Source of the DNA: an uncultured Burkholderiales bacterium
GTDB taxonomy: Bacteria > Pseudomonadota > Gammaproteobacteria > Burkholderiales > Burkholderiaceae_C
Direction: 5' to 3'
Assembly: GCA_903864315.1 (NCBI GenBank)
Contig: CAIPFK010000182.1
Coordinates: forward strand, 1-62,114
DNA length: 62,114 nt
The notes under the pieces were generated by a model. It did not search any database and had not been told where the DNA came from. It saw only the letters and a program-made list of their open reading frames with translations. Below are positions 35,882 through 55,410 of this stretch, one piece after another (the stretch's first letter is position 1; each line of letters begins with the position of its first letter). Made by a program: the position numbers and the translations under genes.

Positions 35882-36841
35882 TTATTCAGCAGAAATTTTG
35901 AGTTGTTTGATCAGTCGTCCAAAGCGCTCGTGATCACTTTTCATGAGCGCGAGAAATTGTTCAGGCGTGTCCGTGGTGGCCTCATATCCAATGCTGGCAA
36001 AGCGCTCCTTGACCAAGGGGCTTTGCGAGGCTTGGGCCAAAATATCGTGCAACTTCGCGACCGTCTCGCGTGGAGTGCCCACGGGTGCCAAAAAGCCAAA
36101 TCGCCCCTCAGCCACCAAGTCCTTGTAACCCAACTCCAGCAAGGTCGGCAGTCCTGGCATCAAGGCGGAACGTGACCGGCCCGACACCGCCAACACCCGC
36201 AGTTTGCCCGAACGAACAAAGGCATCCACTGACCCCAGGTCTGCAAACATCATGTCCACATCCCCTGCCAAAATCGAAGCCACCGCAGGGGTCATGCCCT
36301 TGTAAGGCACTTGCAGCACATCCAACCCCGTGACTGCACTCAGCATCCCCATGGCCAAGTGCGAGACTGAGCCCGCGCCAGAGGTCGCAAACGTATAGCG
36401 CCCAGGTTGGTTGAGGCCCAACTTGATCAACTCCGCTGGCGTTTGGGCAGGCATTGAACTCTTCACAATCAAAGCATAGGGCGCCAAGGCGACATTGGAG
36501 ATGGGTGAAAAATCCTTCAAAGGGTCATAGCTGAGTTTGCTGTAGAGGTGAGGCGCAAAGGCCAAACTGCTTTGCCCAGCAATGAGCAATGTGTGGCCAT
36601 CGGCAGGTGCGTGCGCCACATAGGCTGTGCCCAAGGTGGCGCCCACTCCGCCTCGATTTTCAACAATGACCGAGACCGCCAATGCATCGCTTAATTTTTG
36701 CGCCATGGTGCGCGCAATGGTGTCGCTCGGCCCCCCAGCAGCAAAGGGCGACACGATGGTGATGGATTTGCTGGGAAAAGTTTGTGCGCAATTGGATTGC
36801 CATACCAAACTCATGAGACCCATCAAGCCCAACTTCATCAT
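35882..36841 (-). CDS. Bug-family periplasmic solute-binding protein
   Basis: A 319-residue Bug receptor. The signal peptide (MMKLGLMGLMSLVWQSNC) is followed by AQTFPSKSITIVSPFAAGGPSD, the first loop, and QVPYKGMTPAVASIL is the second. The start at 36841 gives a normal leader; the frame continues upstream to 36940 with a less typical N-terminus that overlaps the TauD stop region. Gene order TauD, Bug, M29-like metalloenzyme on one strand suggests a common pathway. Confidence 0.9.
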   Translation of the reverse strand: MMKLGLMGLMSLVWQSNCAQTFPSKSITIVSPFAAGGPSDTIARTMAQKLSDALAVSVIVENRGGVGATLGTAYVAHAPADGHTLLIAGQSSLAFAPHLYSKLSYDPLKDFSPISNVALAPYALIVKSSMPAQTPAELIKLGLNQPGRYTFATSGAGSVSHLAMGMLSAVTGLDVLQVPYKGMTPAVASILAGDVDMMFADLGSVDAFVRSGKLRVLAVSGRSRSALMPGLPTLLELGYKDLVAEGRFGFLAPVGTPRETVAKLHDILAQASQSPLVKERFASIGYEATTDTPEQFLALMKSDHERFGRLIKQLKISAE

Positions 36842-36942
36842 GAACTTCAAGGCGTAAGATCCACCCAACGCCGACCTCGAGCCAGGGATGGAGGCGACTC
36901 CAAAAAAATAGTGACAGACAGACAATTTCTTACTTCCCATCC

Positions 36943-37833
36943 TCAATAAGGCTTTTCCCCAAGAACGGTGATGCGTCTGAGTTTTCTGCGCTCGCTGGCG
37001 TCAAAATCAGTCCTGGCATGCTGTGAGCAACGGTTGTCCCACAAAATCAAATCCCCCACGCGCCACTGGTGGGCGTAATGAAAAGCCGCTTGTTCGGCAT
37101 GGTCAAAGAGGACGTTGAGCGTCTCATCGCTCTCGGCTTTGCTGAGTCCCTCGATGTGATCGGTCATCAGTCGGTTCACATAAAGCGCCTTCTTGCCTGT
37201 CACCGGATGGGTTCTGAAGACAGGGTGTGCGAAGTACTTGCCGCCTGCTTTGATTTGTGAGCCCCGCATGGTGCCATTGGACTCATAGTCGTACACATTC
37301 ACCGCCAATCGGCCTTCCAAGTGAGTCTTCAGCTCAGTGGGCAACGTTTCATAAGCTTTGTACATATTGGCAAACACCGTGTCACCGCCTTTGGACGGGA
37401 TTTCCATGGCATAGAGCATGGTGGCCATGGCGGGGACTTCCATGTAGCACTGGTCTGAGTGGAAATACATCTCCCCATCGGGCAAGGCACCAATCAGTTG
37501 GCCGTTTTCACGGATGTTGGAGATGTACATGACAGACGGGTGAGTGCCTCGTCCGTTGTGTTGATTGATGACCCCGGCCAATGTACCAAAGCGTTCGCCA
37601 AATCGCACCTGCTCCAACTCATCGAGATGCTGATCTCTAAAGAGCAAGATCAAGCCCTCGTGCCAGGCCGCAAGAATTTGATCAAACACATCTGCACCCA
37701 TGTCTTGCGCGAGGTCCACACCGCGGACCTCGCAACCAATCGCGCCAGAGATGGGACTCGTGACGAGATGGGTCACGTGTGAGTTGGCGGCCAATGTGTC
37801 ATTCATGATCGTGGTCTCGTGGAAGATATGCAT
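36943..37833 (-). CDS. TauD/TfdA-family Fe(II)/2-oxoglutarate dioxygenase
   Basis: A 296-residue dioxygenase. The iron ligands fit HSD in YFHSDQCYMEV and the distal His in DNRCSQHARTDF, with the 2-oxoglutarate-binding Arg in RRKLRRITV. Family members hydroxylate taurine, 2,4-D and other small acids, and the substrate cannot be told here. The start at 37833 is the first ATG; MNDTL at 37806 is the alternative. It lies between two Bug genes on the same strand, which could supply its substrate. Cytoplasmic. Confidence 0.92.
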   Translation of the reverse strand: MHIFHETTIMNDTLAANSHVTHLVTSPISGAIGCEVRGVDLAQDMGADVFDQILAAWHEGLILLFRDQHLDELEQVRFGERFGTLAGVINQHNGRGTHPSVMYISNIRENGQLIGALPDGEMYFHSDQCYMEVPAMATMLYAMEIPSKGGDTVFANMYKAYETLPTELKTHLEGRLAVNVYDYESNGTMRGSQIKAGGKYFAHPVFRTHPVTGKKALYVNRLMTDHIEGLSKAESDETLNVLFDHAEQAAFHYAHQWRVGDLILWDNRCSQHARTDFDASERRKLRRITVLGEKPY

Positions 37834-37932: not shown

Positions 37933-39012
37933 TTACTCCGGTTTGATGTTCACATCCCGAATCACTTTGCCAAACCGGGCCAAATCTTTTTCAATCAACG
38001 TGGCAAACTCCTCGGGTGTGCCCATCAACACGTCGTAATACTGAACTTGAAGTTTTTCTTTGACCTCTTTCTTGGACAACATCGCATTCAAATCTTTGTT
38101 GATTTTTTGCACAATCTCTTTGGGTGTTTTGGCCGGCGCCAAGAGGCCAAACCACACATCAAAGTTGTAGCCCGGCAGACCTGACTCGCTCACCGTGGGA
38201 ATATCGGCCACCAAGTCACTGCGCTTTAAACCCGCAACGGCAAAGCCCTTGAGCTTGCCACTCTTGATGTGAGGGTTCATGTTGGCCACGGTGCTAAAGA
38301 GCACCTGGACCACGCCGGCAATCGCATCCGGAATGGCCGCCCCACACCCTTTGTAGGGCACGTGTTGGATTTTGATTTTGGCCATGGCGTTGAACATCTC
38401 ACCAGCGATGTGCTGGGGAGAGCCGTCTCCACAGGAGATGTAGTTCAGCTCCCCCGGGTGGCCCTTGGCATACTCGATCAACTCTTTGACCGAGTTCACT
38501 GGCACTTGGGCATTGACCCCCACCATGATGGGAGAGGTGGCGACGGTGCCGATGGGGGAGAAATCTTTCACCGCATCCCAAGGCGTGTTGTTGTACAAAC
38601 TTGGATTGATGGACAAATTGCTGGGCATCATCACCAAGGTGTAGCCGTCCGGTGATGATTTGGCAACCCGATCCGCCCCAATATTGCCGCCTGCACCGCC
38701 TTTGTTCTCGACGATGACGGGTTGTCCCCAGGTCTCACCCAACTTTTGCGCTAAAAAGCGGGCCATGGAATCGGTCCCCCCGCCAGCGGCGTAGGGCACC
38801 ACCACCGTGACGGTTTTGCTCGGCCATGGTGCAGGGGGCACCAGCACTTGGGCATGAAGGCATTGGCTGAGCAGCACCATCCACAGGAACCCCGCCCTTA
38901 AGCCGAAAACACTATAAACACTCCTGACACTCCTGATACTTCTGACACTCCCAGAACCGCACGCCCCCCAGTCTCCGGATGCACTCAAGCTGCAATTTTG
39001 TCCAATGCGCAT
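37933..39012 (-). CDS. Bug-family periplasmic solute-binding protein with repeat-bearing N-terminal leader
   Basis: A 359-residue reading, longer than the usual 320. The extra is at the N-terminus: MRIGQNCSLSASGDWGACGS is followed by RSIRSVRSV, coded by four degenerate 9-bp repeats, and only then a hydrophobic segment FGLRAGFLWMVLLSQCLHAQ. The first ligand loop TVVVPYAAGGGTDSMAR and HVPYKGCGAAIPDAIAG are Bug hallmarks. No better start exists downstream except TTG or the Met of WMVLL, which would leave too short a signal, so the ATG at 39012 (AAGAG upstream) is kept with doubt. Upstream lies the third copy of the shared motif. Confidence 0.88.
   Translation of the reverse strand: MRIGQNCSLSASGDWGACGSGSVRSIRSVRSVYSVFGLRAGFLWMVLLSQCLHAQVLVPPAPWPSKTVTVVVPYAAGGGTDSMARFLAQKLGETWGQPVIVENKGGAGGNIGADRVAKSSPDGYTLVMMPSNLSINPSLYNNTPWDAVKDFSPIGTVATSPIMVGVNAQVPVNSVKELIEYAKGHPGELNYISCGDGSPQHIAGEMFNAMAKIKIQHVPYKGCGAAIPDAIAGVVQVLFSTVANMNPHIKSGKLKGFAVAGLKRSDLVADIPTVSESGLPGYNFDVWFGLLAPAKTPKEIVQKINKDLNAMLSKKEVKEKLQVQYYDVLMGTPEEFATLIEKDLARFGKVIRDVNIKPE
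38918..38953. repeat. Four degenerate 9-bp tandem repeats inside the Bug leader
   Basis: Copies are acactcctg (38918-38926), acactcctg (38927-38935), atacttctg (38936-38944) and acactccca (38945-38953). The period is a multiple of three, so the reading frame is kept. Confidence 0.7.
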
Positions 39013-42198: not shown

Positions 42199-42903
42199 AT
42201 GATTGAAGTTTATTCTTGGCCCACCCCCAACGGCCACAAAGTCCACATCATGCTCGAAGAGTGTGGCTTCAAACTCAACCGCGACTGGAAGGCCATTCCC
42301 ATCAACATTGGCCAAGGCGACCAGTTCAAGCCTGAGTTTTTAAATATCAGTCCCAACAACAAAATCCCGGCCCTCGTGGACCCCCACGGACCCGACGGCA
42401 AACCCATTCATCTGTTCGAGTCGGGCGCGATTTTGCTGTACTTGGCCGCCAAAACCGGAAAATTTCTCCCCAAAACCGACCGCGCCAAGTTTGAAGTCTT
42501 GGAGTGGCTCATGTTCCAAATGGGCGGGGTAGGACCCATGCTGGGACAAACTCACCATTTCAGAATGTACGCCCCGGAGAAAATTGAGTACGCCATCAAC
42601 CGCTACAGTCAAGAGACCAAACGACTGTATGGCGTGATGGACAAGCGACTACAAACAAGCAAGTTCTTGGGTGGTAAAACCTACAGCATTGCCGACATGG
42701 CCGTGTATCCTTGGCTCAGAAGTTGGCAAAACCAGGGCATCGATTGGGCCGACTACCCCACCTTGAAGGCTTGGTATGACGCGATTGATGCAAGACCGGC
42801 CGTCAAACGTGGTGTTCAAGTGCTGGCAGACCTCAGAAAACCCGTGCATGATGCCAAAGCCAAAGAGATCCTCTTTGGCAAAACACAGTACGAAAAACGA
42901 TAA
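42199..42903 (+). CDS. Glutathione S-transferase, Nu-class-like (YfcG/YghU type)
   Basis: A 234-residue GST. The N-terminal thioredoxin-like domain begins IEVYSWPTPNGHKVHIMLEE, with the TPN signature of Nu-class enzymes such as YfcG. KIPALVD and ESGAILLYLA (glutathione-binding Pro and Glu-Ser) follow, and the C-terminal all-helical domain includes YSIADMAVYPWL. Nu-class enzymes have disulfide-reductase or peroxidase activity with glutathione. It is followed by a clear intrinsic terminator, so it is the last gene of its unit. Confidence 0.93.
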   Translation: MIEVYSWPTPNGHKVHIMLEECGFKLNRDWKAIPINIGQGDQFKPEFLNISPNNKIPALVDPHGPDGKPIHLFESGAILLYLAAKTGKFLPKTDRAKFEVLEWLMFQMGGVGPMLGQTHHFRMYAPEKIEYAINRYSQETKRLYGVMDKRLQTSKFLGGKTYSIADMAVYPWLRSWQNQGIDWADYPTLKAWYDAIDARPAVKRGVQVLADLRKPVHDAKAKEILFGKTQYEKR

Positions 42904-43009: not shown

Positions 43010-44350
43010 CTACTTCGTGATCATTGAGCAGCGCGAGGTACTCAAGGACAAGCCCTGGGCTTTGCAGTCACCGTCATAGACCACGATACTGCCCGCACTG
43101 TTCCTGATGACTTGCAGGCTCACGCCATCGGCAAAGGTGGCGGCCAAGGTCATGGAGGGCAAGGTCTCCACCCAGGTGGTTTCAGAAATTCGGGCCACCC
43201 GCATCTGGGTATGGGCTGGGTCTTGTAAATTCAGGAAGAAAAATCCTGGCTCATAAAAGACATCGCTGCTCTCCAGGTTGGTGATGGGAAAGAGCAAGGC
43301 ATAGTTGCTGTTGCTGTAAAAAAAGGTTCCAGACTGAGGTGAGGCGGTGACCGTGGTGTCGCTTGACCCCTTGACCCAAAGGGTGGGTCGACCGTTGCTC
43401 AAACTTCCCATCAAAATCAAATCAAGTCGCTTGGCCGCATTCGGATAGGGAACGATTTGTACACCATGCAGTTGGGTGGGGAGCATGGGAGAGGCCGAGT
43501 TGTCGATGATGCGGTCAGTGACTTGTGCAAAGGAGACGTCGGTTTTGACGTTGCTCTTTTGTGCCATGAGCACAATGGCCGACTGGCTGCGATCGACCAA
43601 GACAAGATCCATCAATCCATCGGCATTCAAGTCCGCCGCAGCGGCTTGCTCTGCCTTGAACTGGTAATTGACCATGGAGGTATTGTGTAAAAAAATCTTT
43701 TGATAAACGCCAGTGGTGTCGTTGCTCAGGTAAAGAATTTGTGTTTCTTTGCCCGCGCTTGCAGTGCCTTTGCAAGTGACCAAGACATCGTGGCGCTTGT
43801 CTGCATTGAAGTCAGCGGTGATGGCAAAGGTGGCCACTTGGCAGCCCGTGCTGTCACTCAAAATGCTGCTGGTTTTATCGACCCAAACGCCATTTTGGTT
43901 TTGAAAGAAATGCGCCGACCCAAGCCCCGTTGGGCTATTGTCCATGACAAAGGCCGAATAGTGACCCACGCCTTCGCGAAAATAGTCTCCAAAAGTCACC
44001 GCATTTCGGCTGTCCGGGTCGGCGATGGCAACCCCAAGCAAGCCAGACGAAAAAACCGTCGTTGACGCCATGGCCCGCGCGTCTTGCTTGTATTCATACG
44101 ATGTTGAAAACACCGATGAAGGTGGATACGGGGGCAAAGGCGAGGTCGTGGTGTCCGTGCTGCCCGGTGTCGACGCACCGGGTGGGGCGACTGAAGTGTC
44201 CTTTGCAGTGCCCGAACCACAGGAACTCAGCAGCACCCCGCTGGCCAATCCCAACATCAAACACATGCTGCGTGCCGACTTGAAAGCGCCCTCCCCGACC
44301 CATTGCCAGTCACGGGTCTGTGCTTTCAAGTGGGGAACATTGAACATCAT
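43010..44350 (-). CDS. FG-GAP/VCBS-type repeat lipoprotein of unknown function
   Basis: A 446-residue exported protein. A hydrophobic stretch with a lipobox (MLGLASGVLLSSC) suggests a lipoprotein, followed by a Ser/Thr/Pro-rich linker (about 55-90). The remainder has blades like those of FG-GAP/VCBS propellers: ITADFNADKRHDVLVTC and AAADLNADGLMDLVLVD carry the calcium-binding DxNxDxxxD-like loop. Function unknown; such proteins are surface-exposed binding or adhesion factors. The start at 44350 is a guess, since MCLMLGL nearer the lipobox is also possible. Divergent from a pair of secreted six-cysteine proteins. Confidence 0.75.
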   Translation of the reverse strand: MMFNVPHLKAQTRDWQWVGEGAFKSARSMCLMLGLASGVLLSSCGSGTAKDTSVAPPGASTPGSTDTTTSPLPPYPPSSVFSTSYEYKQDARAMASTTVFSSGLLGVAIADPDSRNAVTFGDYFREGVGHYSAFVMDNSPTGLGSAHFFQNQNGVWVDKTSSILSDSTGCQVATFAITADFNADKRHDVLVTCKGTASAGKETQILYLSNDTTGVYQKIFLHNTSMVNYQFKAEQAAAADLNADGLMDLVLVDRSQSAIVLMAQKSNVKTDVSFAQVTDRIIDNSASPMLPTQLHGVQIVPYPNAAKRLDLILMGSLSNGRPTLWVKGSSDTTVTASPQSGTFFYSNSNYALLFPITNLESSDVFYEPGFFFLNLQDPAHTQMRVARISETTWVETLPSMTLAATFADGVSLQVIRNSAGSIVVYDGDCKAQGLSLSTSRCSMITK

Positions 44351-44665
44351 GGGCGATCCATTTCCAATACAAGGGGGGGCAAAAACACCCATTGACCACA
44401 TCAACCCTACATCGGTGGCCCCAAGCACAAGCTTGCAGTCTTTTGAGTACATCACTTTAACATCTTGCGCCCAAAGACCACGATGCCCAAAAAACCCGCA
44501 TGTCGTTTGCACTTTGAGTTACACTTTGAGTCCATGTAGCCGTCAATTGGTTGCCAGTGGGTCGTCCGTGGCCTTGCTAGGCAACCCCGTTGGGGCTACC
44601 CAAAAGGTCAAACTGTCTCAATAAGACATCATTGTATCGACTCAAAGCCTTAAAATCATGAGCCT
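44351..44665. other. Divergent region with direct repeat and hairpin
   Basis: No gene is visible in these 315 bases. Two 12-bp repeats cactttgagttN-type (44510-44521 and 44522-44533) are followed by a GC-rich hairpin at 44580-44600 (arms GGCAACCCC and GGGGCTACC). The hairpin pairs better on the minus strand, where the two mismatches become G-U pairs. I could not match it to a known riboswitch. Confidence 0.45.
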
Positions 44666-45415
44666 ATGCGTAACCTTTTAATTGTCGTTTGCCTGTGGTC
44701 ATTGACCTCTTTGTTGCCCACTTGGGCCGAGGAGAGGCCCGTGCCTCAATTCAAGCCCTACCCCGTCAAAAAGTCACAAGACTCTGGGGCCGCATCCGAT
44801 GCAGCGGCATCTGGCAATTCAAGCTCATCGTCCAGTGGCAGCGCATCAACCCCCGCCACCAAGCCCATGAGCACCAATTCATGGGACACGCGTGACCACA
44901 GCAACGACAACGCCAGGCCGTTTGGCGTGGATCCTGTGCAATCCTTGAAAGCCCGACCGCCCACTTCGGGCAAAGAGCCCATGTTGACGCTGAACAACAA
45001 AGGCCAGCCCATGAGCCAAGCCATCCATGAGTCCGACCGACTCAGCTACTACGACTGCAAAGGTGTCTTGGCCCCTTGGTTTCAAGAATTGCTGACCGCA
45101 GAGTTGAACTATTTCAGTGAATTGGTCGAGTTCCCCTTGATCAAGGGCACGCAATGTGTGGTGACGGTGGGCACACCCAAGAGCTTGTCGCCGGGGCGCA
45201 TCAGTGTGCAGATGTACCTCAACGGCAAAGAGATGAACGACTGCGTGATGGACAGCATTTGCTTTGTTTTCCGAAGCGTGAACTTGATTGCCAAAAATGG
45301 CGGGGTCTACCGCTCCTACTTTTTGTCCGACATGTTCCGAAAAATTGTCTCCCAACAGTGTGTGACCCCCAAGGGCAAACTCTACTCCAACACGACTTGC
45401 TACTCGGTGGATTGA
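44666..45415 (+). CDS. Secreted protein with unrecognised six-cysteine domain, Ser-rich linker
   Basis: A 249-residue exported protein. Residues 1-21 form a signal peptide ending at TWA, about 40-75 is a Ser/Ala/Thr-rich linker, and the C-terminal domain (about 125-249) carries six cysteines: 131, 164, 193, 199, 232 and 245. The next gene has the same six cysteines at 131, 164, 194, 200, 233 and 246, with matching residues around several of them (YDC/YLC, GTQC/GSTC, YRSYFLSD/YRSLIITD, QQC/QYC). I do not recognise the domain. Three disulfides are plausible. It is divergent from an FG-GAP-like lipoprotein gene. Function unknown. Confidence 0.85.
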   Translation: MRNLLIVVCLWSLTSLLPTWAEERPVPQFKPYPVKKSQDSGAASDAAASGNSSSSSSGSASTPATKPMSTNSWDTRDHSNDNARPFGVDPVQSLKARPPTSGKEPMLTLNNKGQPMSQAIHESDRLSYYDCKGVLAPWFQELLTAELNYFSELVEFPLIKGTQCVVTVGTPKSLSPGRISVQMYLNGKEMNDCVMDSICFVFRSVNLIAKNGGVYRSYFLSDMFRKIVSQQCVTPKGKLYSNTTCYSVD

Positions 45416-45585
45416 CCCCATTGGAGCCAACTTGGCAAGGCAAACCCACATGCAACTTGCGGCTCATGAGTACGCCCCATTCGTACGAATTGCGGGACTG
45501 CTGGCGCACATGCCCCCTCGAGAATTCAAGCCCCATTCAAGTCTTGGCCACTTGGGTCGATTACCCTACTCAACACCTTTGACCT

Positions 45586-46563
45586 ATGAACACCTCACCT
45601 TGCTTTTTAACCAAGCTCTTGCTGCCCACCTCCGTTTGGCTGGCACTCAGTTGCACCTTGAGCCTGGGCGTGAGCTCGGGCCTCTTGTTGAGCACCAGTG
45701 CCTTGGCGCATGAGAAAAAAGAAGAAAAGAAAGAAGAGAAAAAGGAAGGGGGTGAGAAAAAAGAGGAAAAGAAAGAAGAAAAAAAAGAAGAGAAGAAGGA
45801 AGAGAAAAAGGAAGGGGGTGAGAAAAAAGAAGAGCACAAAGAGGACCACAAAAAGGCCAAGCCCGCCCGCCCCAAAAGGACCTTTGAAGGCATTGAGCCC
45901 CTCTTTTATTTAGACGACAATCGCCACCCCTTTGATGAACCCTTCGCCAAGAAAGAAGAGGAGGAGTTTTATCTCTGCCGTGCCAATGTGGGCGAATGGT
46001 ACCGGGATATGAATGTGGCCGATTTGAACCGATTGGCCGCAAAAGACAATCTCAACCAAATTTCCGGATCCACGTGTGCGCTGCACCTGTTTCCATCAAG
46101 TTTGGGTAAAAAATTGCCCTACCTCATGCTGGAGTTCTATACCGGCTCAGACGGGATGCGCGAATGCATTTTGACGGAGGAGTGTCCTGAGGTTCGAACG
46201 GTCATCATGTACATCAAAGACAAAACGCTTTATCGCAGTCTGATCATCACCGACTCCAAGAAACACGTGCACCGCCAGTACTGCTTGACCAACAAGAGCG
46301 ACGTCTTGGCCGACAAAGCATGTTGGCGCTATTTCCAAGACCTGGCCCAGGCCAAGCGCGAGGCCGAACTCAAAGGCGAAGAGGAGGACAACAGTCCACA
46401 GGCTCTACGCAAAAAACGCCGCGAAGAGTTCGAGGCCAAGAAAAAAGCCCGCGAAGGCCATGATTCCAAAAACAATTCGGCCGCAGAGTCCAAAGAAGAG
46501 TCGGGCCAAGAAGACCCACACAAAGCGGAAAAGCACAGTCAAGACAAACACAAAGAGCACTAG
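45586..46563 (+). CDS. Secreted protein with unrecognised six-cysteine domain and Lys/Glu-rich repeat
   Basis: A 325-residue exported protein, paralogous to the previous gene. The signal peptide ends near SALA (residue 41). Residues 43-90 are a Lys/Glu repeat (KEEKKEEKKEGGEKKEEK-like, two 22-residue units). About 100-250 holds the six cysteines (131, 164, 194, 200, 233, 246) with the domain residues shared with the neighbour. The tail (about 252-325) is charged, Lys/Glu/His-rich and probably disordered. It starts 170 bases after the neighbour's stop. Highly charged arms on both sides suggest binding to a surface or a partner. Function unknown. Confidence 0.85.
   Translation: MNTSPCFLTKLLLPTSVWLALSCTLSLGVSSGLLLSTSALAHEKKEEKKEEKKEGGEKKEEKKEEKKEEKKEEKKEGGEKKEEHKEDHKKAKPARPKRTFEGIEPLFYLDDNRHPFDEPFAKKEEEEFYLCRANVGEWYRDMNVADLNRLAAKDNLNQISGSTCALHLFPSSLGKKLPYLMLEFYTGSDGMRECILTEECPEVRTVIMYIKDKTLYRSLIITDSKKHVHRQYCLTNKSDVLADKACWRYFQDLAQAKREAELKGEEEDNSPQALRKKRREEFEAKKKAREGHDSKNNSAAESKEESGQEDPHKAEKHSQDKHKEH
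45715..45837 (+). repeat. Lys/Glu-coding purine-rich repeat, 66-bp period
   Basis: The purine-rich tract contains the same 30-base block with a GGGGG run at 45748-45752 and 45814-45818, 66 bp (22 codons) apart. It includes a run of eight A at 45779-45786. Length variation here would add or remove 22 residues in frame. Confidence 0.7.
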
Positions 46564-46688
46564 GAATAGGGCTTTGTTGGCTGGATGTCAACTTCCACTT
46601 TGGGTGCAACGACCTCTTCAAGATCAGGCAGGGGTATCGAAGGGACCCTCACCCAGGTTGGGGTCAACGCCTTGTGATGAGCCTGCCA

Positions 46689-46979
46689 TCAATCCTTGAG
46701 ATCAATGAAATCCTCAATGGCGCGCTTATATTGAAGACCCGCGTCGGCGAACACCGACGCGATATGGGCTTTCATCTCAGCACTCACACCGCTGGGGTGA
46801 TGGTAGACCTCCATCCAAGTCTCGAACCCTTCGCTTGAAACTTCAGGGCGACGCATCAAGTTGATTTGAAGCGAAGTGAATCGATGTTGAATTTGGGCCA
46901 AGGCCTTGTCGACCAACATCTTGGCACTGGCGTGCTCTGCTTGGGGCACCTTGTAATAGACAAATAAAGTGTGTTTCAT
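46689..46979 (-). CDS. DUF4936-family protein
   Basis: A 96-residue protein, MKHTLFVYYKVPQAEHASA at the start, with ETWMEVYHHPSG in the middle. This matches the small DUF4936 family found mainly in Burkholderiales, a ferredoxin-like alpha/beta fold of unknown role. The ATG at 46979 is used, since the earlier in-frame reading adds an unrelated leader. The neighbours give no clue: a secreted protein lies on one side and tandem repeats with a Bug gene on the other. It supports the Burkholderiales assignment of the window. Confidence 0.8.
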   Translation of the reverse strand: MKHTLFVYYKVPQAEHASAKMLVDKALAQIQHRFTSLQINLMRRPEVSSEGFETWMEVYHHPSGVSAEMKAHIASVFADAGLQYKRAIEDFIDLKD

Positions 46980-47217: not shown

Positions 47218-48264
47218 TCACATGCGCTCAATTTTCATGGTGTTGACCAAATTATTCCATTTATCGACTTCATTGGACATCAACTCTTTGAGCTCATCGG
47301 GTGTGCCCCCGCGGGAGTCGATCCCGACTTCTAAAAACCGTTGTTTAACGTCGGGCATGGCCAATATCGCATTGATCTCTTTGTTCAAGCGATCGATGAT
47401 GGCTTGCGGTGTTTTGGCGGGAGCGGCCACACCATTCCAAGCCTTCACATCGTAGCCCTTGACACCACTCTCCGTCATGGTCGGCACATCGGGCAGGCCC
47501 TTGAAGCGGTTGCTGCCCGATACCGCCAGTACCCTCACCTCACCGGCCTTCACCAAGGCCAGGGCGGGAGAGATGATCTCAAACGCCACGCTCACATCCT
47601 TGCCCTTCAACGCCAGCATCAAGGAGGGTGTCGTTTTGTAAGGGATCAAGGAAGTCGAGTGCAGTGCGGCCATGTTTTGAAACAAAAGGGCTGCGATGTG
47701 TTGGCCCGACCCCAAGCTCACCGAGCCAATGTTGTATTTGTCTGGAGAGGCTTTGGCCTTGGCAATGAAGTCTTGAACATTTTGAATGTCTGAATTTTTA
47801 TCCACCAACATCAAGACATCGAAAAAGCCCATGGCCGAGATCGGTGCGAAATCTTTTTTGATGTCATAGGGCAATTTTTTAAAGAGCGCCTGACTCACCG
47901 CATTGCCGTAGTTCATGTGCAGCAAGGTGTAGCCATCGGGATCGGCCTTGGCCACCATGTCGCCCGCCACCACGCCTGCCGCCGATGGACGGTTGTCCAC
48001 CACCACTTGCTGGCCCAAAGCCTCAGAGAGTTTTTGCGCGACCAGTCTCGCCGTGATATCGGCCACACCACCCGCACCGTAACCCAAGACCATGCGGATG
48101 GGTTTATTGGGATAAGTGTTGGTGCCCTGGGCCCAAGCAAGCGGGCCTTGTAAGAGGGCTGCGGCGAGCATCACCACCCAGGCTTTACTCCAGTGGGCCT
48201 GGTGTTGGACAAGGGTGTCCAAAGGGGTCTTGCGTGAAATTTGAAGTCTGAGGGTGTTGCGCAT
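47218..48264 (-). CDS. Bug-family periplasmic solute-binding protein
   Basis: A 348-residue Bug receptor with an unusually long leader: about 30 polar residues precede the hydrophobic WVVMLAAALLQGPLAWA, ending in AQG. TYPNKPIRMVLGYGAGGVAD is the first loop (LGYGAGG instead of VPYxAGG) and IPYKTTPSLMLAL the second. A GGGAG site six bases upstream supports the ATG at 48264. It follows UbiX on the same strand after 125 bases and may supply the aromatic acid decarboxylated by UbiD. Confidence 0.92.
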   Translation of the reverse strand: MRNTLRLQISRKTPLDTLVQHQAHWSKAWVVMLAAALLQGPLAWAQGTNTYPNKPIRMVLGYGAGGVADITARLVAQKLSEALGQQVVVDNRPSAAGVVAGDMVAKADPDGYTLLHMNYGNAVSQALFKKLPYDIKKDFAPISAMGFFDVLMLVDKNSDIQNVQDFIAKAKASPDKYNIGSVSLGSGQHIAALLFQNMAALHSTSLIPYKTTPSLMLALKGKDVSVAFEIISPALALVKAGEVRVLAVSGSNRFKGLPDVPTMTESGVKGYDVKAWNGVAAPAKTPQAIIDRLNKEINAILAMPDVKQRFLEVGIDSRGGTPDELKELMSNEVDKWNNLVNTMKIERM

Positions 48265-48389
48265 TGAAGTCTCCCAATTAGGTGTTGGCATCTTGCACGG
48301 GTTGAATGAATGGTCGTGTGGATGAGGCTATTGTTGATGAACTGTGGGCAAAGATGAGACGCTGGCGACAAGTTGTTGATGAACGAAGG

Positions 48390-49118
48390 TCATCCCTGGC
48401 CACCCTTGCCACCCTTGCCCCCCATACCTTCCCAGCGATTGACCATGTCGGTCTCGATATCAAAGAGATCCAAACAGCGGCCCACGGTGTGGTTGACCAT
48501 GTCATCCAAGGTTTGGGGGCGAGCGTAAAAAGCAGGCATGGGCGGGAGCAAAATGGCACCGTTTTCACACGCTTGGGTCATCGCTTTCAAATGCCCCGCG
48601 TGCAGTGGCGTCTCGCGCACCATCAAGACCAAACGTCGACGCTCTTTGAGGACCACGTCTGCGGCTCTGGAGAGCAAGGTGCTCGTGAGCCCGTAAGCAA
48701 TTTCTGACAAGGAGCGAATCGAGCAAGGTGCCACGACCATGCCCATGGTTTTGAAGGAACCCGAGGAGATCGTCGCGCCAATGTTTTTGGCATTGTGCAC
48801 TTGAGTGGCCAAGTCACACACCTCGTCAAAGCTCAGACTCATTTCAGTCGACAAGGTCATGCGAGCCGAATCGCTCATCACCAAGTGGGTCTCGATGCCC
48901 GAGCCTTGGAGGACTTGCAAAATTCGAACACCATAAACTATGCCCGAGGCTCCACTGATGCCCACAATCAAGCGCCTGGGCGTGTCGTGGAGCTGCCCAC
49001 GACTGAGTGCGACCGACTTTGCCGACTTTGCCGACTTGGCGGATTGGGTCAACTTGGCACTGGAGGTGGTTTTCACAATGGGCTGCTTTTTATTCGAATT
49101 TTTGGATGTGGTTGCCAT
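48390..49118 (-). CDS. ubiX: Flavin prenyltransferase UbiX/Pad1 family
   Basis: A 242-residue UbiX. The Rossmann start LIVGISGASGIVYGVRILQVL, the phosphate-binding region and VVAPCSIRSLSEIAYGLTSTLLSRAADVVLKERRRLVLMVRETPL-type residues (key Arg and Ser-Leu) are visible. UbiX makes prenylated FMN, the cofactor of UbiD. It ends in a GGKGGKGGQG tail and begins with an extension containing SAKSAKSAKS; both are coded by 9-bp tandem repeats (ends near 48396-48422 and 49014-49040). It lies 3 bases after the UbiD stop, so the two are translationally coupled. Confidence 0.95.
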   Translation of the reverse strand: MATTSKNSNKKQPIVKTTSSAKLTQSAKSAKSAKSVALSRGQLHDTPRRLIVGISGASGIVYGVRILQVLQGSGIETHLVMSDSARMTLSTEMSLSFDEVCDLATQVHNAKNIGATISSGSFKTMGMVVAPCSIRSLSEIAYGLTSTLLSRAADVVLKERRRLVLMVRETPLHAGHLKAMTQACENGAILLPPMPAFYARPQTLDDMVNHTVGRCLDLFDIETDMVNRWEGMGGKGGKGGQG

Positions 49119-49121
49119 GCT

Positions 49122-50756
49122 TTAAGCGTCCTCGCCGGGCCTGAATTTACTCTCAGCTTTGACATCATTTCTTTGCTGCTTCAAGCTCACCAACCCGTTT
49201 TCCAAATAGCGTCCGGTGGCGGCTTTTTTGGCGGCATCGTCCCACTGGGGCAACCAGTCACCCAAGGTGTAACCAAACCAAGGCGCTTGGGGACGCAGTT
49301 TGGGCAAACCCAACTCTTGCCAAATTTCTTTGGACCGTTCCATGTATTCACGCGTGGGCAAGGCCAAAGGCGGCATGGCCGACTTCATGGTGGCATCCAT
49401 GAGCAAGGTCGAATCCTCTTCACCATCGTTTTCTCGCTTGGGGCCGTGGCCTTGGCCGCGGTGATCCAGAGTCTGCACATCCTCCTTGGGGTTCATGCGG
49501 TAGGCCATGGCCCACAAAATGGCATCGGCATTGTCGGGGTCGATGTCATCGTTGACGGCAATACAAATTTTGCCGCAGTCGCCTTTGAAAAACGCTGCGC
49601 CATAAAGCGCACGCCAGACCTCGGTTTTGGGGACATCGCGCTCCAAGGTGATGATGGTGACCCGGAGCAGACCGGTGAGCGGCTCATGAAGGGAGACCTT
49701 CTTCACGCCCTTGATGCCCAACGCATTTTTGAGGTGGGCGGTGAAGAGTGGCTCATAGGCCACTCGCTTGATGACGCTAGACTCTGAGGGGGCGACTTGG
49801 CTCAAGTAAGAGGGAATCACAGGCTTGAAACGGTGGGTGATGGCCGTGATTTTCATGGGCAAATTGAATTCCTCCAAAGCCACGTGGCCATGCGACTCAC
49901 CAAATGGCGCCTCGGGCTCCAAAAACTCCAGATCAATCTCGCCTTCGATCACAATCTCAGACTCTGCAGGAATGGTGAGCGGCACGCTGTGGGCTTTTGC
50001 AATGCGAATGGCCACACCGGCCAAGCCACCCGCCACCTCCAACTCATCGACGCCGATAGGCATTTTCTGTGGACCCATGAAGGCCACACTCGGTGGGCAG
50101 CCAAGCACCACGGCACACGGCATGGTCTTGTGGCCCAGTGCCTTCCAGGCCTGGTAGTGCAAGTACCCACCCGCACCACCCACTCGAGTGGCCATGCGCA
50201 CGACCATGCGGTCAGAGGCCTTCAAGGCGGCTCGGTAGGTGCCCATGTTTTGCACACCCGTCTGAGGGTGTTTGGTGATCACATTGGTGGCGGTGAGTGT
50301 GGGGGCGCTATCAAAGCCTGGAGTGGAGATAGGGATGGGCAGCATGTCAAGACCCTTGCCCTCGCCCAGCAAATCTGCACCTTCGTGGATGACCTCTTGG
50401 CACTCGGGCTTGTCCACCATGACGGGTTTGATGGGGTGATTGATGGCGTGGTCCCAACGGGCTTGGATTTGCTCGACTGAGCAGCCCATGCCCACGCTGT
50501 AGATTTCACGATTGGCGGCCAGTGCCCCCACCACCACGGGGATGTCATAGCGCCGGCCTTGGGCGTTGACGATGTTGGTGAAAATGAAAGCCTTGCGCTC
50601 TGACTCGTCCATGCCGCCCACAAACTGCCAGCGCACCAAGGGGTGAAGCTCAGAGTCTTTGTCAATGGCTTTGTCAATGACTTGCAAAAGACCGCGAGCT
50701 TTGAGGGATTCCAAATGGTCGTGTAAATCGGGGTAACCGTCGTTCTTGTGGCTCAT
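49122..50756 (-). CDS. UbiD-family prenylated-FMN decarboxylase
   Basis: A 544-residue UbiD-type decarboxylase. It opens GYPDLHDHLESL, has PLVRWQFVGGMDESERKAF, and contains the catalytic acid stretch LEPEAPFGESHGHVALEEF, with MPIGVDELEVAGG in the centre. UbiD enzymes use prenylated FMN to add or remove carboxyl groups on aromatic or alpha,beta-unsaturated acids. The start at 50756 agrees with the conserved opening; an ATG at 50813 is also in frame. UbiX, its cofactor supplier, follows 3 bases after. A second, similar UbiD begins at 60382. Ring specificity is unknown. Confidence 0.93.
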   Translation of the reverse strand: MSHKNDGYPDLHDHLESLKARGLLQVIDKAIDKDSELHPLVRWQFVGGMDESERKAFIFTNIVNAQGRRYDIPVVVGALAANREIYSVGMGCSVEQIQARWDHAINHPIKPVMVDKPECQEVIHEGADLLGEGKGLDMLPIPISTPGFDSAPTLTATNVITKHPQTGVQNMGTYRAALKASDRMVVRMATRVGGAGGYLHYQAWKALGHKTMPCAVVLGCPPSVAFMGPQKMPIGVDELEVAGGLAGVAIRIAKAHSVPLTIPAESEIVIEGEIDLEFLEPEAPFGESHGHVALEEFNLPMKITAITHRFKPVIPSYLSQVAPSESSVIKRVAYEPLFTAHLKNALGIKGVKKVSLHEPLTGLLRVTIITLERDVPKTEVWRALYGAAFFKGDCGKICIAVNDDIDPDNADAILWAMAYRMNPKEDVQTLDHRGQGHGPKRENDGEEDSTLLMDATMKSAMPPLALPTREYMERSKEIWQELGLPKLRPQAPWFGYTLGDWLPQWDDAAKKAATGRYLENGLVSLKQQRNDVKAESKFRPGEDA

Positions 50757-50990
50757 GGCTAAAATTTTTTCTATCGTGACATCTTGAGAACGCTCTGCAA
50801 AAAAAGGCGACATGCAGTTTGTCAAACCCGTGTCTTTATTTTTTGGAGAACAAGGAAGTGCTCGCCTGTTGTAGATCTGGAGCACCCAACTGGAGAACAG
50901 CAACAAGGCGTGATCATACCGCAGACCCTTGTCATCCATGAATCAACTTTCATCGCATCGCCCCCAATACGCACTCAAAGCTCAGCGCAA

Positions 50991-51034
50991 GTCTCGAGCA
51001 AATATCGAACATATGTCGAGCATATATCGAGCAT
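50991..51034. repeat. Four 11-bp iterons (possible regulator-binding repeats)
   Basis: Copies gtctcgagcaa, atatcgaacat, atgtcgagcat and atatcgagcat are contiguous, consensus atatcgagcat. The 11-bp spacing equals one turn of B-DNA, so all copies face the same side. The tract lies 235 bases from the ubiD start and about 440 from the CoxM-like start. Confidence 0.65.
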
Positions 51035-51210
51035 ATGCGCCACCATTTTGCAGTCGCATGATGCACATCAATGGGGAACGAAAATCCTTTGAAAATTTTG
51101 CAGGTCGCGACCGTTTTGACAGCCTGCCATCTTTATAATGAGAGATGATTCAAATAACAAGCCATGATGTTTATCGTGAATTGCATTGAAAGCCAGTAAA
51201 ACCAGCAAGA

Positions 51211-51230
51211 TAAGGGTAAACCCTCGTGGC
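51211..51230 (+). promoter_or_regulatory. Shared motif, copy 4 (upstream of the molybdenum hydroxylase operon)
   Basis: TAAGGGTAAACCCTCGTGGC on the plus strand matches the motif core AGGG-(W/A)-A-CC-T-GTGG. It lies 244 bases before the first gene of the operon, in the same orientation relative to it as the other copies are to theirs. Confidence 0.45.
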
Positions 51231-51474
51231 TCAATTATTCGACCCTTGCACGTGCAACTCACCACCCTTTGAACTTTGCGGCAAGCTCCCAGTTGAGTTA
51301 AGCCACCCAAGACTTGAGAGACCTTTGGAGCATCGATGACTTGAACACGGCGGCCCTTTATTTGAGATTTTTTTTGTACCCAACAGTCGCTATGATTTTG
51401 AATCCCGAGACGCCACCCCTTTGGACTCCTCGCGACCCACTGCTCCTCCACCTTGACACCTAGGACACCCCCCA

Positions 51475-52371
51475 ATGAAAGCGGCTCCCTTTGACTACCT
51501 TTTGGCCCACGACTTGGATGAGGCCTTGAACCACCTTGAACAGTACGGTGCAGACGCCAAACTGATCGCTGGCGGCCAAAGCTTGGTGCCCATGATGGCC
51601 ATGCGCTTGGCCCGCCCCGAGTGGCTCGTGGATATCAATCGACTCCAAAGCCTCAAACGCATCGATGTTTTGGACAACAAGGTGCATGTGGGAGCAGGTG
51701 TGCGCCAGCGCGACATTGAGTTCCATGCGCAAGTTCATGTGGCCCTGCCCTTGGTCAAGCAAGCCCTGCAGTGGGTGGGGCACCAACAAACCCGCAACCG
51801 CGGCACTGTGGGCGGCAGTTTGGTCTACGCAGACCCGTCCTCCGAGTTGCCACTCTCGGCGTTGCTGCTGGGTGCCACCTTTTATTTGGAGAGCAAAAGC
51901 GAAGGCTCTCGCCAAGTGCAAGCGCAAGATTTTTTCCTAGGCCCCATGTTCACCAGTGTCGGCGAGACCGACTGCTTGACGGGCATTGACTTCCCCATCT
52001 GGTCTGGCGGCAAAATCGGTTGCGCCTTTGAAGAGACCGCCATTCGCCGCGGTGACTTTGCCATGGCCTCGGCGGCATGCCAGTTGCAACTCGATGACTC
52101 TCAGCGCATCGTGCGCTTGAGTTTTGGTCTGGGGGGCATGGACGGCACACCGCGTGTATTTCCCGACTTGGCCCAAGGCCTGCTTGGCCAAACCTTGGCG
52201 CAAGTGGACATCCACGACTTGAGCGCGCTCGCTGTTGCCCAGTGTGAGCCGGGTGGCGACATGCACGCGAGTGCACAGTACAGGCGGCATTTGGCGCGGG
52301 TGCTGCTGCCTCGCGTGATCCAGCAAGCGCACCAACATGCGCTGAGCTCAACAAACCATGTGTTGACCTGA
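51475..52371 (+). CDS. FAD-binding subunit of a molybdenum hydroxylase (CoxM type)
   Basis: A 298-residue FAD subunit. The FAD-binding region KLIAGGQSLVPMMAMRLARPEWLVDI and the second flavin loop TVGGSLVYADPSSELP, with a C-terminal CO-dehydrogenase flavoprotein domain, are clear. It transfers electrons from the iron-sulfur subunit to FAD and on to an acceptor. It is the first gene of the operon with the iron-sulfur and molybdenum subunits (order M-S-L). There is no ATG conflict; the start at 51475 agrees with family starts (MKAAPFDYLLAHDLDEAL). Confidence 0.94.
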   Translation: MKAAPFDYLLAHDLDEALNHLEQYGADAKLIAGGQSLVPMMAMRLARPEWLVDINRLQSLKRIDVLDNKVHVGAGVRQRDIEFHAQVHVALPLVKQALQWVGHQQTRNRGTVGGSLVYADPSSELPLSALLLGATFYLESKSEGSRQVQAQDFFLGPMFTSVGETDCLTGIDFPIWSGGKIGCAFEETAIRRGDFAMASAACQLQLDDSQRIVRLSFGLGGMDGTPRVFPDLAQGLLGQTLAQVDIHDLSALAVAQCEPGGDMHASAQYRRHLARVLLPRVIQQAHQHALSSTNHVLT

Positions 52372-52457
52372 CTCGCCTGCTGCTCAACACGCTACAACCG
52401 TTGCCAGCTCACCGTGTCGTCCCTTCATTTTTCTCCTTACCTCTAGTGTGACTCGCC

Positions 52458-52973
52458 ATGATCAATAAGCAATCGATTCAAATCACCGTCAACGGCTCGC
52501 CCCACCAACGCGATGTCGAGCCCAGAACCACATTGGTGGATTTTTTACGCGACGACTTGGCGCTCACCGGCACCCATGTCGGCTGCGAGCACGGAGTCTG
52601 CGGGGCCTGCTCCGTGATCTTGGATGGACACCCGGTGAGGTCGTGCTGCATGTTTGCCGTGCAAGCCAATGGCTCGCAAGTGACCACGGTCGAAGGCTTG
52701 GCCACGAGCAGGACAGAGATGTCAGCCTTGCAAGACGCGTTTTGTGAAAAACACGGCTTGCAATGCGGCTACTGCACACCGGGCATGCTGGTCGCCTGCT
52801 CAGCCCTCTTGGCCGAACACCCTCAACCCACCAAGGAGCAAGTGCGCGAGGCCATCAGTGGCAATTTGTGCCGTTGTACGGGATACCAACAAATCGTCGA
52901 TGCGGTGATGCATGCCACCCGTCCTTTGGGACTCACCCACACTGGCGGCGAAGGAGACAACCATGTCAAATGA
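52458..52973 (+). CDS. [2Fe-2S] subunit of a molybdenum hydroxylase (CoxS type)
   Basis: A 171-residue iron-sulfur subunit. Cys43, Cys48, Cys51 and Cys63 in CEHGVCGACSV...C hold the plant-type cluster; Cys103, Cys106, Cys138 and Cys140 (CGYC, CRC) hold the second cluster in the helical domain. The spacing is canonical. It relays electrons from the molybdenum centre to the FAD subunit. It begins 86 bases after the FAD subunit and overlaps the large subunit by 11 bases, so they are translationally coupled. Confidence 0.96.
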   Translation: MINKQSIQITVNGSPHQRDVEPRTTLVDFLRDDLALTGTHVGCEHGVCGACSVILDGHPVRSCCMFAVQANGSQVTTVEGLATSRTEMSALQDAFCEKHGLQCGYCTPGMLVACSALLAEHPQPTKEQVREAISGNLCRCTGYQQIVDAVMHATRPLGLTHTGGEGDNHVK

Positions 52974-55410
52974 ATCCCAAGCCCCCAAGGGCAAAGCCCC
53001 GTTTCGCTTCATTGGCAAACACCGCCGTGCAGTCGAGCACAAACGTTTTGTGTTGGGCCAAGGCCATTACGCCGCCGACATCCAGCGCCCGGGCATGCTG
53101 CACGTGGCCCTGATATCGAGCCCCTACGCCAGCGCCCACATCTTAAAAATCGATGCCAGTGAGGCCTTGGCCATGCCAGGCGTGCACGCTGTGCTCACGG
53201 GCGACGAGTTGGTGCACAACACCGACCCCACCTTGCCCGGTGTGGACGCGCCGCAGGTCACTCGCTACGCCTTGGCCCATCAAACCGCACGCTATGCGGG
53301 CGAGTGGGTGGCGGCCGTCGTGGCCGAGACCCGCGCCTTGGCAGAAGATGCCGCCGAGTTGGTGCAAATTGACTATGAGGTCCTCCCCCACATCGTGGAC
53401 CCCGAAGCAGCGCTTCAAAGTGGCGCGCATTTGGTGCATGAAAAACATGGCAGCAACGTCATCTTTCACCGCAAATTCGTTTGGGGACCCGTTGACGCTG
53501 ATTTTGCCCAATGTGAAAACCAGTTGAGCTACCGAGTGCACTGGGCCAGAAGCTCCACGGTGCCCATCGAGACCTTTGCGGTGACGTGTGAGTGGAGTGA
53601 CGCCACCCGCATCTTGGACGTGTGGGCCTCCATTCAAATGCCCAAGTTTCCCGACCAAGTGGCCAAGGCCTTGAGGTTGCCTGGCAACGATGTGCGCGTG
53701 CACTTTGATGTGGATGTGGGCGGCAGCTACGGTGTCAAGCGCGGCTTAAAGCACACCATCTTGGTGGCCTATTTGGCCAAAAAGCTTGCGCGACCCGTGC
53801 GCCTCATTGAAGACCGCATTGAGAACATGCGAGGCGGCGATATGCAAGGGCCCGACCGCATTTTCGATGTCACGCTGGGGTTTCAAAACAGTGGCGAGAT
53901 TCGCACCATGAGAATCAAGGCACTCGAAGACATCGGCGCCTATTCGGGCCGCTCGCCGCTGCAACTGGGCAAACCCGTGGGCGCCATTGTGGGTCCCTAC
54001 CGCATCAAAAGCGTGGAGTATGACGCCACGGCCGTGCTCACCAACAAGACCCCGCAAGAAGCGGTGCGCGGCTTTGGACAAGCACCGACCAATTACGCCT
54101 TGGAGACCGGCATCGATTTGGTGGCCAGGCACTTGAGCATGCCCGCTGTGGCCCTTCGAAAACTCAACCTCATCGCCCCGGATGAATTCCCTTACCTCAT
54201 CCCCTCAGGCACACACTATGACTCGGGCGACTACGAGACGGTGCTCGACAAGGCGCTCAACGAGGCCAAGTTTGAAGAGTTGATCAAAAAGCGTGATCGC
54301 TTGAGAGAGAACGGGATTTTGGCCGGCGTGGGTGTCTCCACCTGCCTTGAGCCCTCAGGCGGCAACTCCTCCTTTGAGCCGCTCTTTAATCCTAAAAACC
54401 AAACCACCACGTGGATGGATTCATGCTTGGTCCGGGTCGACCTCTCGGGTGCGGTCACCGCGCTCATGGGCACCTCCTCATCGGGCCAATCCCACGAGAC
54501 CATGGTCTCCACCGTGGTGGCAGAAATCTTGGAGCGCGAGCCCGACACCATCCGCGTGATCAAGGCCGACAGCTTGAATGCCCTCCCCTCCAACAGCCCC
54601 GTGGGCTCGCGCATGGCCATCATGCTCGGTGGTGCGGCAGCGGGTGCGGCCAAGAAAATTCGTCACAAATTGCGTTTGATTGCCGCTCACAACTTGCAAG
54701 TCCCGGAAGAGCAATTGGGCTACCGCGACGGGGGCGTGTATCAATTGAGCCGGCCAGACCACCAGATGTCATGGGACGCGCTTGTGGAAATTGCACATCG
54801 CAAATACCACTGTTTGCCTGAAGGCATGGAGCCTGGGCTGCAAGAGAAATTTGTTTGGGAAGTGCCCACCGGAGGTGAGCTCCCCACGGGTGACGGACGG
54901 GTGCAGATGTACCCTTGTCACTCCTTTGAAGCGCACGTGATTTTGGCAAGCATTGACCCGGGAACATGCAAGGTGCATATCCACCGCTATGTGGTGGGAC
55001 ACGACTGCGGGGTGATGATCTCCCCCGATGTGGTGCACGGCATGACCTATGGCGGTGTGGCGCACGGCTTGGGGGCGGCCCTCATGGAGAAGTTTGCGTT
55101 TTCTGAAGACGGACAACTCTTGGCCGGCACCTTCATGGATTACTTGCTCCCGACATCTCACGAGGTGCCGGAGATCTCCATTGTGGACCACTGCACCCCA
55201 TCTCCCCTGACCGAGTTTGGTCAAAAGGGCTCGGGTGAAGCCGGCTATTTGGGCTCGCCTGCGGCCATTGCCAACGCCATCAATGATGCACTGGCACCGA
55301 TGAAGGCACGCATCAGTGCGCTGCCGATGACGCCTCAAGCCATCTGGCAGGCATTGGAAGAGGCCAAGGCACAGACCAGCGCCAGCACCCAAGCTCAAGC
55401 CCATGCTTAA
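52963..55410 (+). CDS. Molybdenum hydroxylase large subunit (CoxL/xanthine dehydrogenase type)
   Basis: An 815-residue molybdopterin-binding subunit. The catalytic glutamate is in GSGEAG (about residue 759), and GGSYGVKRGLKH and GFGQAPTNYALE are molybdopterin-binding loops. The CO-dehydrogenase AYRCSF loop is replaced by VRGFGQAP, so it is not a true CO dehydrogenase; the family hydroxylates N-heteroaromatics and aldehydes with water as the oxygen source. The start is the ATG at 52963 with AAGGAG. No XdhC-like sulfurase-insertion gene is in the window. Substrate unknown. Confidence 0.95.
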   Translation: MSNESQAPKGKAPFRFIGKHRRAVEHKRFVLGQGHYAADIQRPGMLHVALISSPYASAHILKIDASEALAMPGVHAVLTGDELVHNTDPTLPGVDAPQVTRYALAHQTARYAGEWVAAVVAETRALAEDAAELVQIDYEVLPHIVDPEAALQSGAHLVHEKHGSNVIFHRKFVWGPVDADFAQCENQLSYRVHWARSSTVPIETFAVTCEWSDATRILDVWASIQMPKFPDQVAKALRLPGNDVRVHFDVDVGGSYGVKRGLKHTILVAYLAKKLARPVRLIEDRIENMRGGDMQGPDRIFDVTLGFQNSGEIRTMRIKALEDIGAYSGRSPLQLGKPVGAIVGPYRIKSVEYDATAVLTNKTPQEAVRGFGQAPTNYALETGIDLVARHLSMPAVALRKLNLIAPDEFPYLIPSGTHYDSGDYETVLDKALNEAKFEELIKKRDRLRENGILAGVGVSTCLEPSGGNSSFEPLFNPKNQTTTWMDSCLVRVDLSGAVTALMGTSSSGQSHETMVSTVVAEILEREPDTIRVIKADSLNALPSNSPVGSRMAIMLGGAAAGAAKKIRHKLRLIAAHNLQVPEEQLGYRDGGVYQLSRPDHQMSWDALVEIAHRKYHCLPEGMEPGLQEKFVWEVPTGGELPTGDGRVQMYPCHSFEAHVILASIDPGTCKVHIHRYVVGHDCGVMISPDVVHGMTYGGVAHGLGAALMEKFAFSEDGQLLAGTFMDYLLPTSHEVPEISIVDHCTPSPLTEFGQKGSGEAGYLGSPAAIANAINDALAPMKARISALPMTPQAIWQALEEAKAQTSASTQAQAHA

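Follow-up and report, generated by a model that had tools for sequence, protein, structure and literature searches.

The window analysed here is a 62,114-nucleotide stretch of DNA from an uncultured Burkholderiales bacterium, in which translation identified two genes, designated A and B, lying head to tail on the forward strand. Gene A (positions 44666..45415) is predicted to encode a protein of 249 amino acids with a signal-peptide-like start (read by eye), a serine-rich linker and a C-terminal domain bearing six cysteines (44969..45412, forward strand; residues 102-249). Gene B (45586..46563) is predicted to encode a protein of 325 amino acids, in which a signal-peptide-like start (also read by eye) is followed by a spacer rich in lysine and glutamate, a six-cysteine domain (45889..46335, forward strand; residues 102-250) and a charged C-terminal tail (46336..46560, forward strand), which comprises 75 residues past the domain as cut and 79 past the last cysteine. 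The spacer, of EEKK type, is encoded by imperfect tandem repeats with periods of 12, 42 and 66 (45711..45842, forward strand), so its length could be altered by slippage. A search of positions 44400-46750 for RNA elements found none.

The cysteines of A were located at residues 9, 131, 164, 193, 199, 232 and 245 and those of B at residues 6, 23, 131, 164, 194, 200, 233 and 246, which gives domain spacings of 32-28-5-32-12 in A and 32-29-5-32-12 in B; cysteine 9 of A and cysteines 6 and 23 of B are extra and fall within the signal region. The two proteins were aligned by BLASTP (E = 8e-18) with 36 of 155 positions identical (23%) and all six domain cysteines covered, and the likeness of their domains is beyond chance; over the family alignment the domains are 20% identical. 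In the 80 residues preceding the domain, lysine, glutamate, aspartate and histidine make up a fraction of 0.17 for A as against 0.59 for B. A sequence-only reading of the window had described a tandem pair with export-like starts, six cysteines at these positions and spacings, a duplicated domain and contrasting linkers; the cysteines were confirmed by translation and the duplication by the BLASTP alignment, the pair with its starts (as read by eye) was borne out, and the contrast between linkers holds in the window. That reading also proposed that three disulfides may stabilise the domain, and that the unlike linkers may serve different modes of display or the binding of different partners. 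In the same genome the domain occurs a third time (37% to A; G000:C152:41850-42284; locus L002).

An undescribed six-cysteine domain family

When A and B were compared in full with Pfam and NCBIfam, no curated cut-off was reached over the domain; the lowest stray E value was 0.0002, for NF005844 (20.3 bits of 964) on low-complexity parts of B, and the weak Pfam matches of B (FAM176, RPC4, DUF4770, EOS1 and others) were largely confined to the signal region and the spacer of low complexity. No Pfam family was found for 65 domain copies (lowest E = 0.0062) and no PHROGs family for 20 copies (one match at 0.0031), no PADLOC model matched A, B or the FG-GAP protein of the window, and sequence and profile searches of the PDB gave no credible match, the best (nucleolin, E = 0.034) being read as chance. 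Identity with a known family was ruled out by these searches, and the earlier description of the domain as unrecognised stood. Among the literature listed on Limnohabitans lipoproteins and six-cysteine periplasmic proteins, no title or abstract opening reported the family. The domain family is undescribed; its fold was compared with the PDB only, and novelty of the fold is not claimed.

Confident AF2 models of the domain were obtained for A (mean pLDDT 94.5, pTM 0.90) and B (mean pLDDT 92.2, pTM 0.87), and the predicted order of elements is nearly identical in the two, namely a strand, a long helix, two strands, a short helix and four strands. Foldseek gave no match at E <= 0.001 in the PDB for either model, nor among viral models for the model of A. 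Thioredoxin-fold oxidoreductases such as DsbA and DsbC have a CXXC active site. The six-cysteine proteins resemble such periplasmic thiol proteins in that they look exported and contain cysteines, and thiol genes are found close to some of the solo genes, but the domain has no thioredoxin family match, and CXXC was absent from all 142 full-length copies examined (see below), in which every spacing between cysteines is at least 5; a DsbA/DsbC-type oxidoreductase was ruled out by the lack of any spacing of two in these copies.

Conservation was assessed in a first set of 65 domain copies, from 40 regions and the window, and in a larger set of 143 sequences, with some genomes present twice, which yielded 146 distinct domain sequences, 142 of them full length. 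Exactly six domain cysteines were present in all 65 copies of the first set and in all 142 distinct full-length copies, among which there was no natural loss of a cysteine pair. In the 142 copies the first spacing was 32 (140 copies) or 34 (2), the second 28 (103) or 29 (39), the third 5 (142), the fourth 32-34 (119) or 38 (23) and the fifth 12 (142). The family was defined by a spacing of about 32 / 28-30 / 5 / 32-38 / 11 or 12 together with a full-length profile match, and so defined it includes A and B of the window and the 142 distinct copies. Besides the cysteines, P14 and R115 (A domain numbering) were invariant in the 65 copies, and N47, R102 and D121 nearly so. Fourteen orthologues of A were 47-82% identical to A of the window.

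Outside the domain, A copies have a short and variable linker and end 4-6 residues past the last cysteine. The spacer of B-type copies varies in sequence, with a lysine, glutamate, aspartate and histidine fraction of 0.42-0.82 in 19 of 25 copies and of 0.14-0.30 in the other six, where the measured stretch mostly extends into the signal region. The B-type tail ranges from 7 to 79 residues (79 in the window and L035; 7-37 in the other 23 copies measured, one of which is cut by a contig end). Judged by eye, 4 of 24 A copies (L049, L053, L054 and L073) and 10 of 17 solo copies have a clear lipobox; the latter count is used in preference to a pattern count of 11 of 17, in which two copies are doubtful (L059, L062) and one was missed (L064). 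One subclade of B copies (L042-L048, L051, L052 and L072) was observed to have both a conserved C-terminus past the domain, ending in PDWLFN, and a six-residue insertion ahead of the fifth cysteine (spacing 38).

Distribution and history

A total of 199 genomes were searched by single sequence and by profile, and the two methods agreed. Within one genus, apparently Limnohabitans, 77 of the 84 genomes (the genome of the window included) have the domain, as against none of 115 genomes of 96 other genera. The family is dispensable, because seven of the 84 lack it (G004, G012, G017, G035, G050, G069 and G082, of which G017, G050 and G069 are 96-99% complete) and two have a solo paralogue only (G059, 97% complete, and G005, 87%). 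Sets of genomes from the order, phylum and class, overlapping in part with the 199 and with one another, were also searched. In the order (399 genomes) the sole match besides a chance one in G348 (47 residues with three stops) was the window's own genome, which was also the one match in the phylum (398 genomes). One true outsider, from a different family (G981, E = 5.2e-11), was found among 369 genomes of the class, where a match in G910 (60 residues, one stop) was read as chance; when 154 genomes related to G981 were searched, G981 alone matched. Strict restriction to the genus is broken by this homologue, and the earlier expectation of homologues only in betaproteobacteria proved nearly true, one homologue falling in a different family of the class. 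There was no match to A or to the distant homologue among plasmids, phages and viral contigs, and an origin from any of these was rejected accordingly.

The distant homologue (G981:C1:1606254-1606673; L173 1498-1932; L175 8096-8689) lies in an ORF of 197 residues from the first start codon, with a signal-peptide-like start by eye, and its cysteine spacing is 32-30-5-32-11. The domain (L173) scored 43.9 bits against the family profile, compared to -0.5 for the reversed sequence, and the six cysteines, P14 and R102 are kept, R115 not; on these sequence features it is judged to be a true distant homologue. It is situated 8 bases downstream of an ORF with no Pfam match (L175 7458-8087), and about 7 kb from it is a NifH/frxC-family gene, which we take to be bchL.

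Named genomes were scanned with patterns from the A copies, giving 94 stretches, of which 67 were confirmed, at 64 loci; many of these belong to genomes also present in the genome set (for example L097 and G071:C1). The Limnohabitans loci come from three isolates and several bins, and the others from bins assigned to Burkholderiales, Burkholderiaceae, Comamonadaceae or Betaproteobacteria. Both genes of the pair are present in JirII-31, Jir61 and B9-3. Bins labelled Rickettsia typhi and Bordetella parapertussis (L128, L131) also carry the family; the GST gene and a further ORF upstream in L131 resemble the genus loci, so the labels of both bins look wrong.

Gene B was found downstream of A on the same strand for all 58 named A copies with room to see, the remaining 6 of 64 being excluded as too near a contig end. 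In G072 a B-type copy occurs alone, but only 268 bases separate it from the contig end, which cuts the locus where A is expected, and this possible exception to the pairing was dismissed. Shared regulation alone could keep the two genes adjacent. In a midpoint-rooted tree of 52 rows (85% representatives), the deepest split separated the B copies from the A and solo copies (support 99/97), which on this rooting rules out a recent local duplication, and A and B would appear to be products of an old one; because the root is the midpoint, the order of events is one that we can only infer. All solo rows except L070, including the third copy of the window's own genome (L002), formed one clade (99/98), which branched among the A copies with weak support, and L070 grouped with B.

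Genomic neighbourhoods

In the window, the gene adjoining A upstream is divergent (43010..44512, reverse strand) and encodes a lipoprotein-like protein with FG-GAP repeats; it is preceded by a GST family gene (42199..42903, forward strand), whose highest-scoring NCBIfam model, that of a GSH-dependent disulfide bond oxidoreductase, was matched at 248.9 bits, short of the cut-off of 332. The GST gene probably belongs not to the A-B pair but to an upstream block that ends with it and is presumably catabolic. Upstream genes were counted at the 64 named loci as well as in the window, L094 and L138 being left out for want of upstream sequence, and in the 58 loci with enough upstream sequence A was adjoined by the divergent lipoprotein in 45, by a gene designated gene 41 in 10 and directly by the GST gene in 3. 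The lipoproteins counted are of one general kind, Gly/Ser-rich after the cysteine, and were identified partly by hand reading; L101 and L106 were counted from the FG-GAP part only. Eight of these lipoproteins were compared with Pfam, giving FG-GAP repeats in three, NHL repeats in three, lactonase repeats in one and no match in one. The frequency of such divergent lipoproteins beside A (45 of 58 loci) and their FG-GAP, NHL or lactonase repeats (seven of eight examined) would be consistent with an envelope neighbourhood. The genes downstream of the pair vary among lineages, and the unlike genes adjoining A (propellers, gene 41 and GST) argue against one obligate neighbour partner.

Gene 41, which is co-directional with A, lies upstream of it where the propeller-type lipoprotein is missing (ten named loci, among them L049, L054, L073 and, by position only, L142) and has 'DTxxNIxxNLxxL'-like repeats; the one copy tested (L049) had no significant Pfam match. 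The window also contains three ORFs of one cluster on the reverse strand (36001-36946, 37933-39012 and 47218-48291), which we assume to be Bug/TctC-type periplasmic receptors, and, at 48390-55410, genes that we read as UbiX/UbiD and a molybdenum hydroxylase.

The neighbours of 18 solo loci were assigned by matching one member per cluster to Pfam or NCBIfam and the rest by clustering or tblastn. Sulfur or thiol genes were directly beside nine. Rhodanese genes flank both solo copies of G052 on both sides (L057, L058), Sulf_transp genes lie directly upstream of L060 and L061 (matching the TsuA model weakly, at 44 bits of 400), OsmC followed by cysteine synthase lies directly downstream of L067, L068, L069 and L172, and thioredoxin 2 and flavocytochrome c sulfide dehydrogenase adjoin L065. 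The two loci of G052 are paralogous strings with the order rhodanese, six-cysteine lipoprotein, rhodanese lipoprotein, thioesterase-like and methyltransferase-like gene, the last assigned by eye. The other nine loci (L055, L056, L059, L062, L063, L064, L066, L070 and L071), with the third copy of the window's own genome among them, have no such neighbours. Hemerythrin-like genes occur by L055, L056, L062 and L066, presumably near dnaG and rpoD, and the neighbours of L063 and L064 are taken to be a dioxygenase and a kinase.

In five genomes with sulfur-linked solo copies, all six of these copies lay within 250 bp of a match to the rhodanese, Sulf_transp or OsmC families (PF00581, PF04143 or PF02566), compared to 0.4-1.1% of random positions. 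The neighbourhoods were already known when these genomes and the three gene families were selected, and the six copies represent three independent contexts, so this proximity is a lead and no proof, and the unselected figure is nine of 18. For five A-B pairs the nearest such match was 35, 40 and 94 kb away in three and absent from the contig in two, one of which lies at the contig end.

Possible functions of the pair and of the solo copies

Our preferred explanation, which we hold with about even confidence, is that A and B are a disulfide-stapled, non-catalytic binding pair of the envelope, working together. Invariant cysteines in a diverging, export-like domain without CXXC argue for structural disulfides rather than redox thiols, and the consistent inheritance of two dissimilar copies as a tandem argues for a joint function. 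Both proteins, judging from starts that look like signals by eye, would be exported to the envelope, each predicted to terminate in a single compact domain (alpha+beta, about 145 residues), which three structural disulfides formed after export would hold together. Following an old duplication the two genes would have stayed adjacent and co-directional, and their products most probably cooperate, either within a complex or by binding in succession, in the periplasm or at the outer membrane. In this arrangement A would sit near the membrane (probably as a lipoprotein in some lineages), B would be held on its charged, extensible spacer, and the domain itself would act as a putative non-catalytic binding module.

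The main rival is suggested by the solo loci, half of which point to periplasmic thiol or sulfane-sulfur chemistry. Here the domain would bind or carry sulfane sulfur or thiols in the periplasm, through a redox-active cysteine or as an accessory of rhodaneses and thiosulfate transporters, and A and B would be a diverged pair with shared chemistry. This is unlikely, though it draws on the rhodanese, Sulf_transp, OsmC/cysteine synthase and thioredoxin 2 genes of nine loci and on the six of six count, as that count is biased by the choice of genomes and families, the other nine loci have different neighbours and the domain has no CXXC. The likeness to sulfane-sulfur gene strings (rhodanese, YeeE/TsuA-type transporters and OsmC) is one of adjacency; the six-cysteine protein itself is no rhodanese, transporter or OsmC, and the five A-B pairs measured lie outside such strings. 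Among specific functions, sulfur handling is the foremost candidate for some of the solo branch and a less strong candidate for the pair, for which a thiol or sulfane-sulfur link is only a lead. A more far-reaching version, which we regard as improbable, is that the domain is a new fold or superfamily by which the envelope handles sulfane sulfur or thiols, the solo lipoproteins serving rhodanese, transporter and OsmC operons and A-B being a dedicated two-protein form.

It is likewise improbable that A, B and the divergent lipoprotein make up a surface set specific to the lineage, serving attachment, contact between cells, or defence against grazers or phages. Signal-like starts, lipoproteins among the copies, a long charged spacer built from tandem repeats, a propeller type that changes at one fixed place and presence in most genomes of the genus would all suit such a role; the A domain, however, is conserved among its 14 orthologues, unlike the often hypervariable targets of phages and grazers, and PADLOC has no model for any of the three window proteins. 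An inhibitor or chaperone-like binder of the cystatin/monellin type, a helix-on-sheet fold, would agree with the one long helix and antiparallel strands predicted, and monellin chains recurred in Foldseek for both models, together with one cystatin match for A. All of these matches are weak and non-significant, however (best monellin E 0.9 for A and 0.13 for B, with TM-scores of about 0.2-0.3 and rmsd mostly 11-13 Angstrom), the highest-ranked match of A was a segment of Rad50 spanning 64 columns (E = 0.26), and the domain differs in having a second helix and six cysteines. We regard this reading as highly improbable. The disulfide-stapled binding pair remains our preferred explanation.

Thus 77 of the 84 genomes of a single freshwater genus carry an undescribed and confidently predicted domain family, and its fixed tandem pair invites a test of heteromeric partnership. 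Half of the solo loci provide a testable lead to envelope sulfur or thiol chemistry. Should that lead fail, this would be a lineage-restricted envelope family, one of many; if the far-reaching version of the sulfur reading is true, a widespread freshwater lineage, including most Limnohabitans, would gain a hitherto undescribed periplasmic sulfur component.
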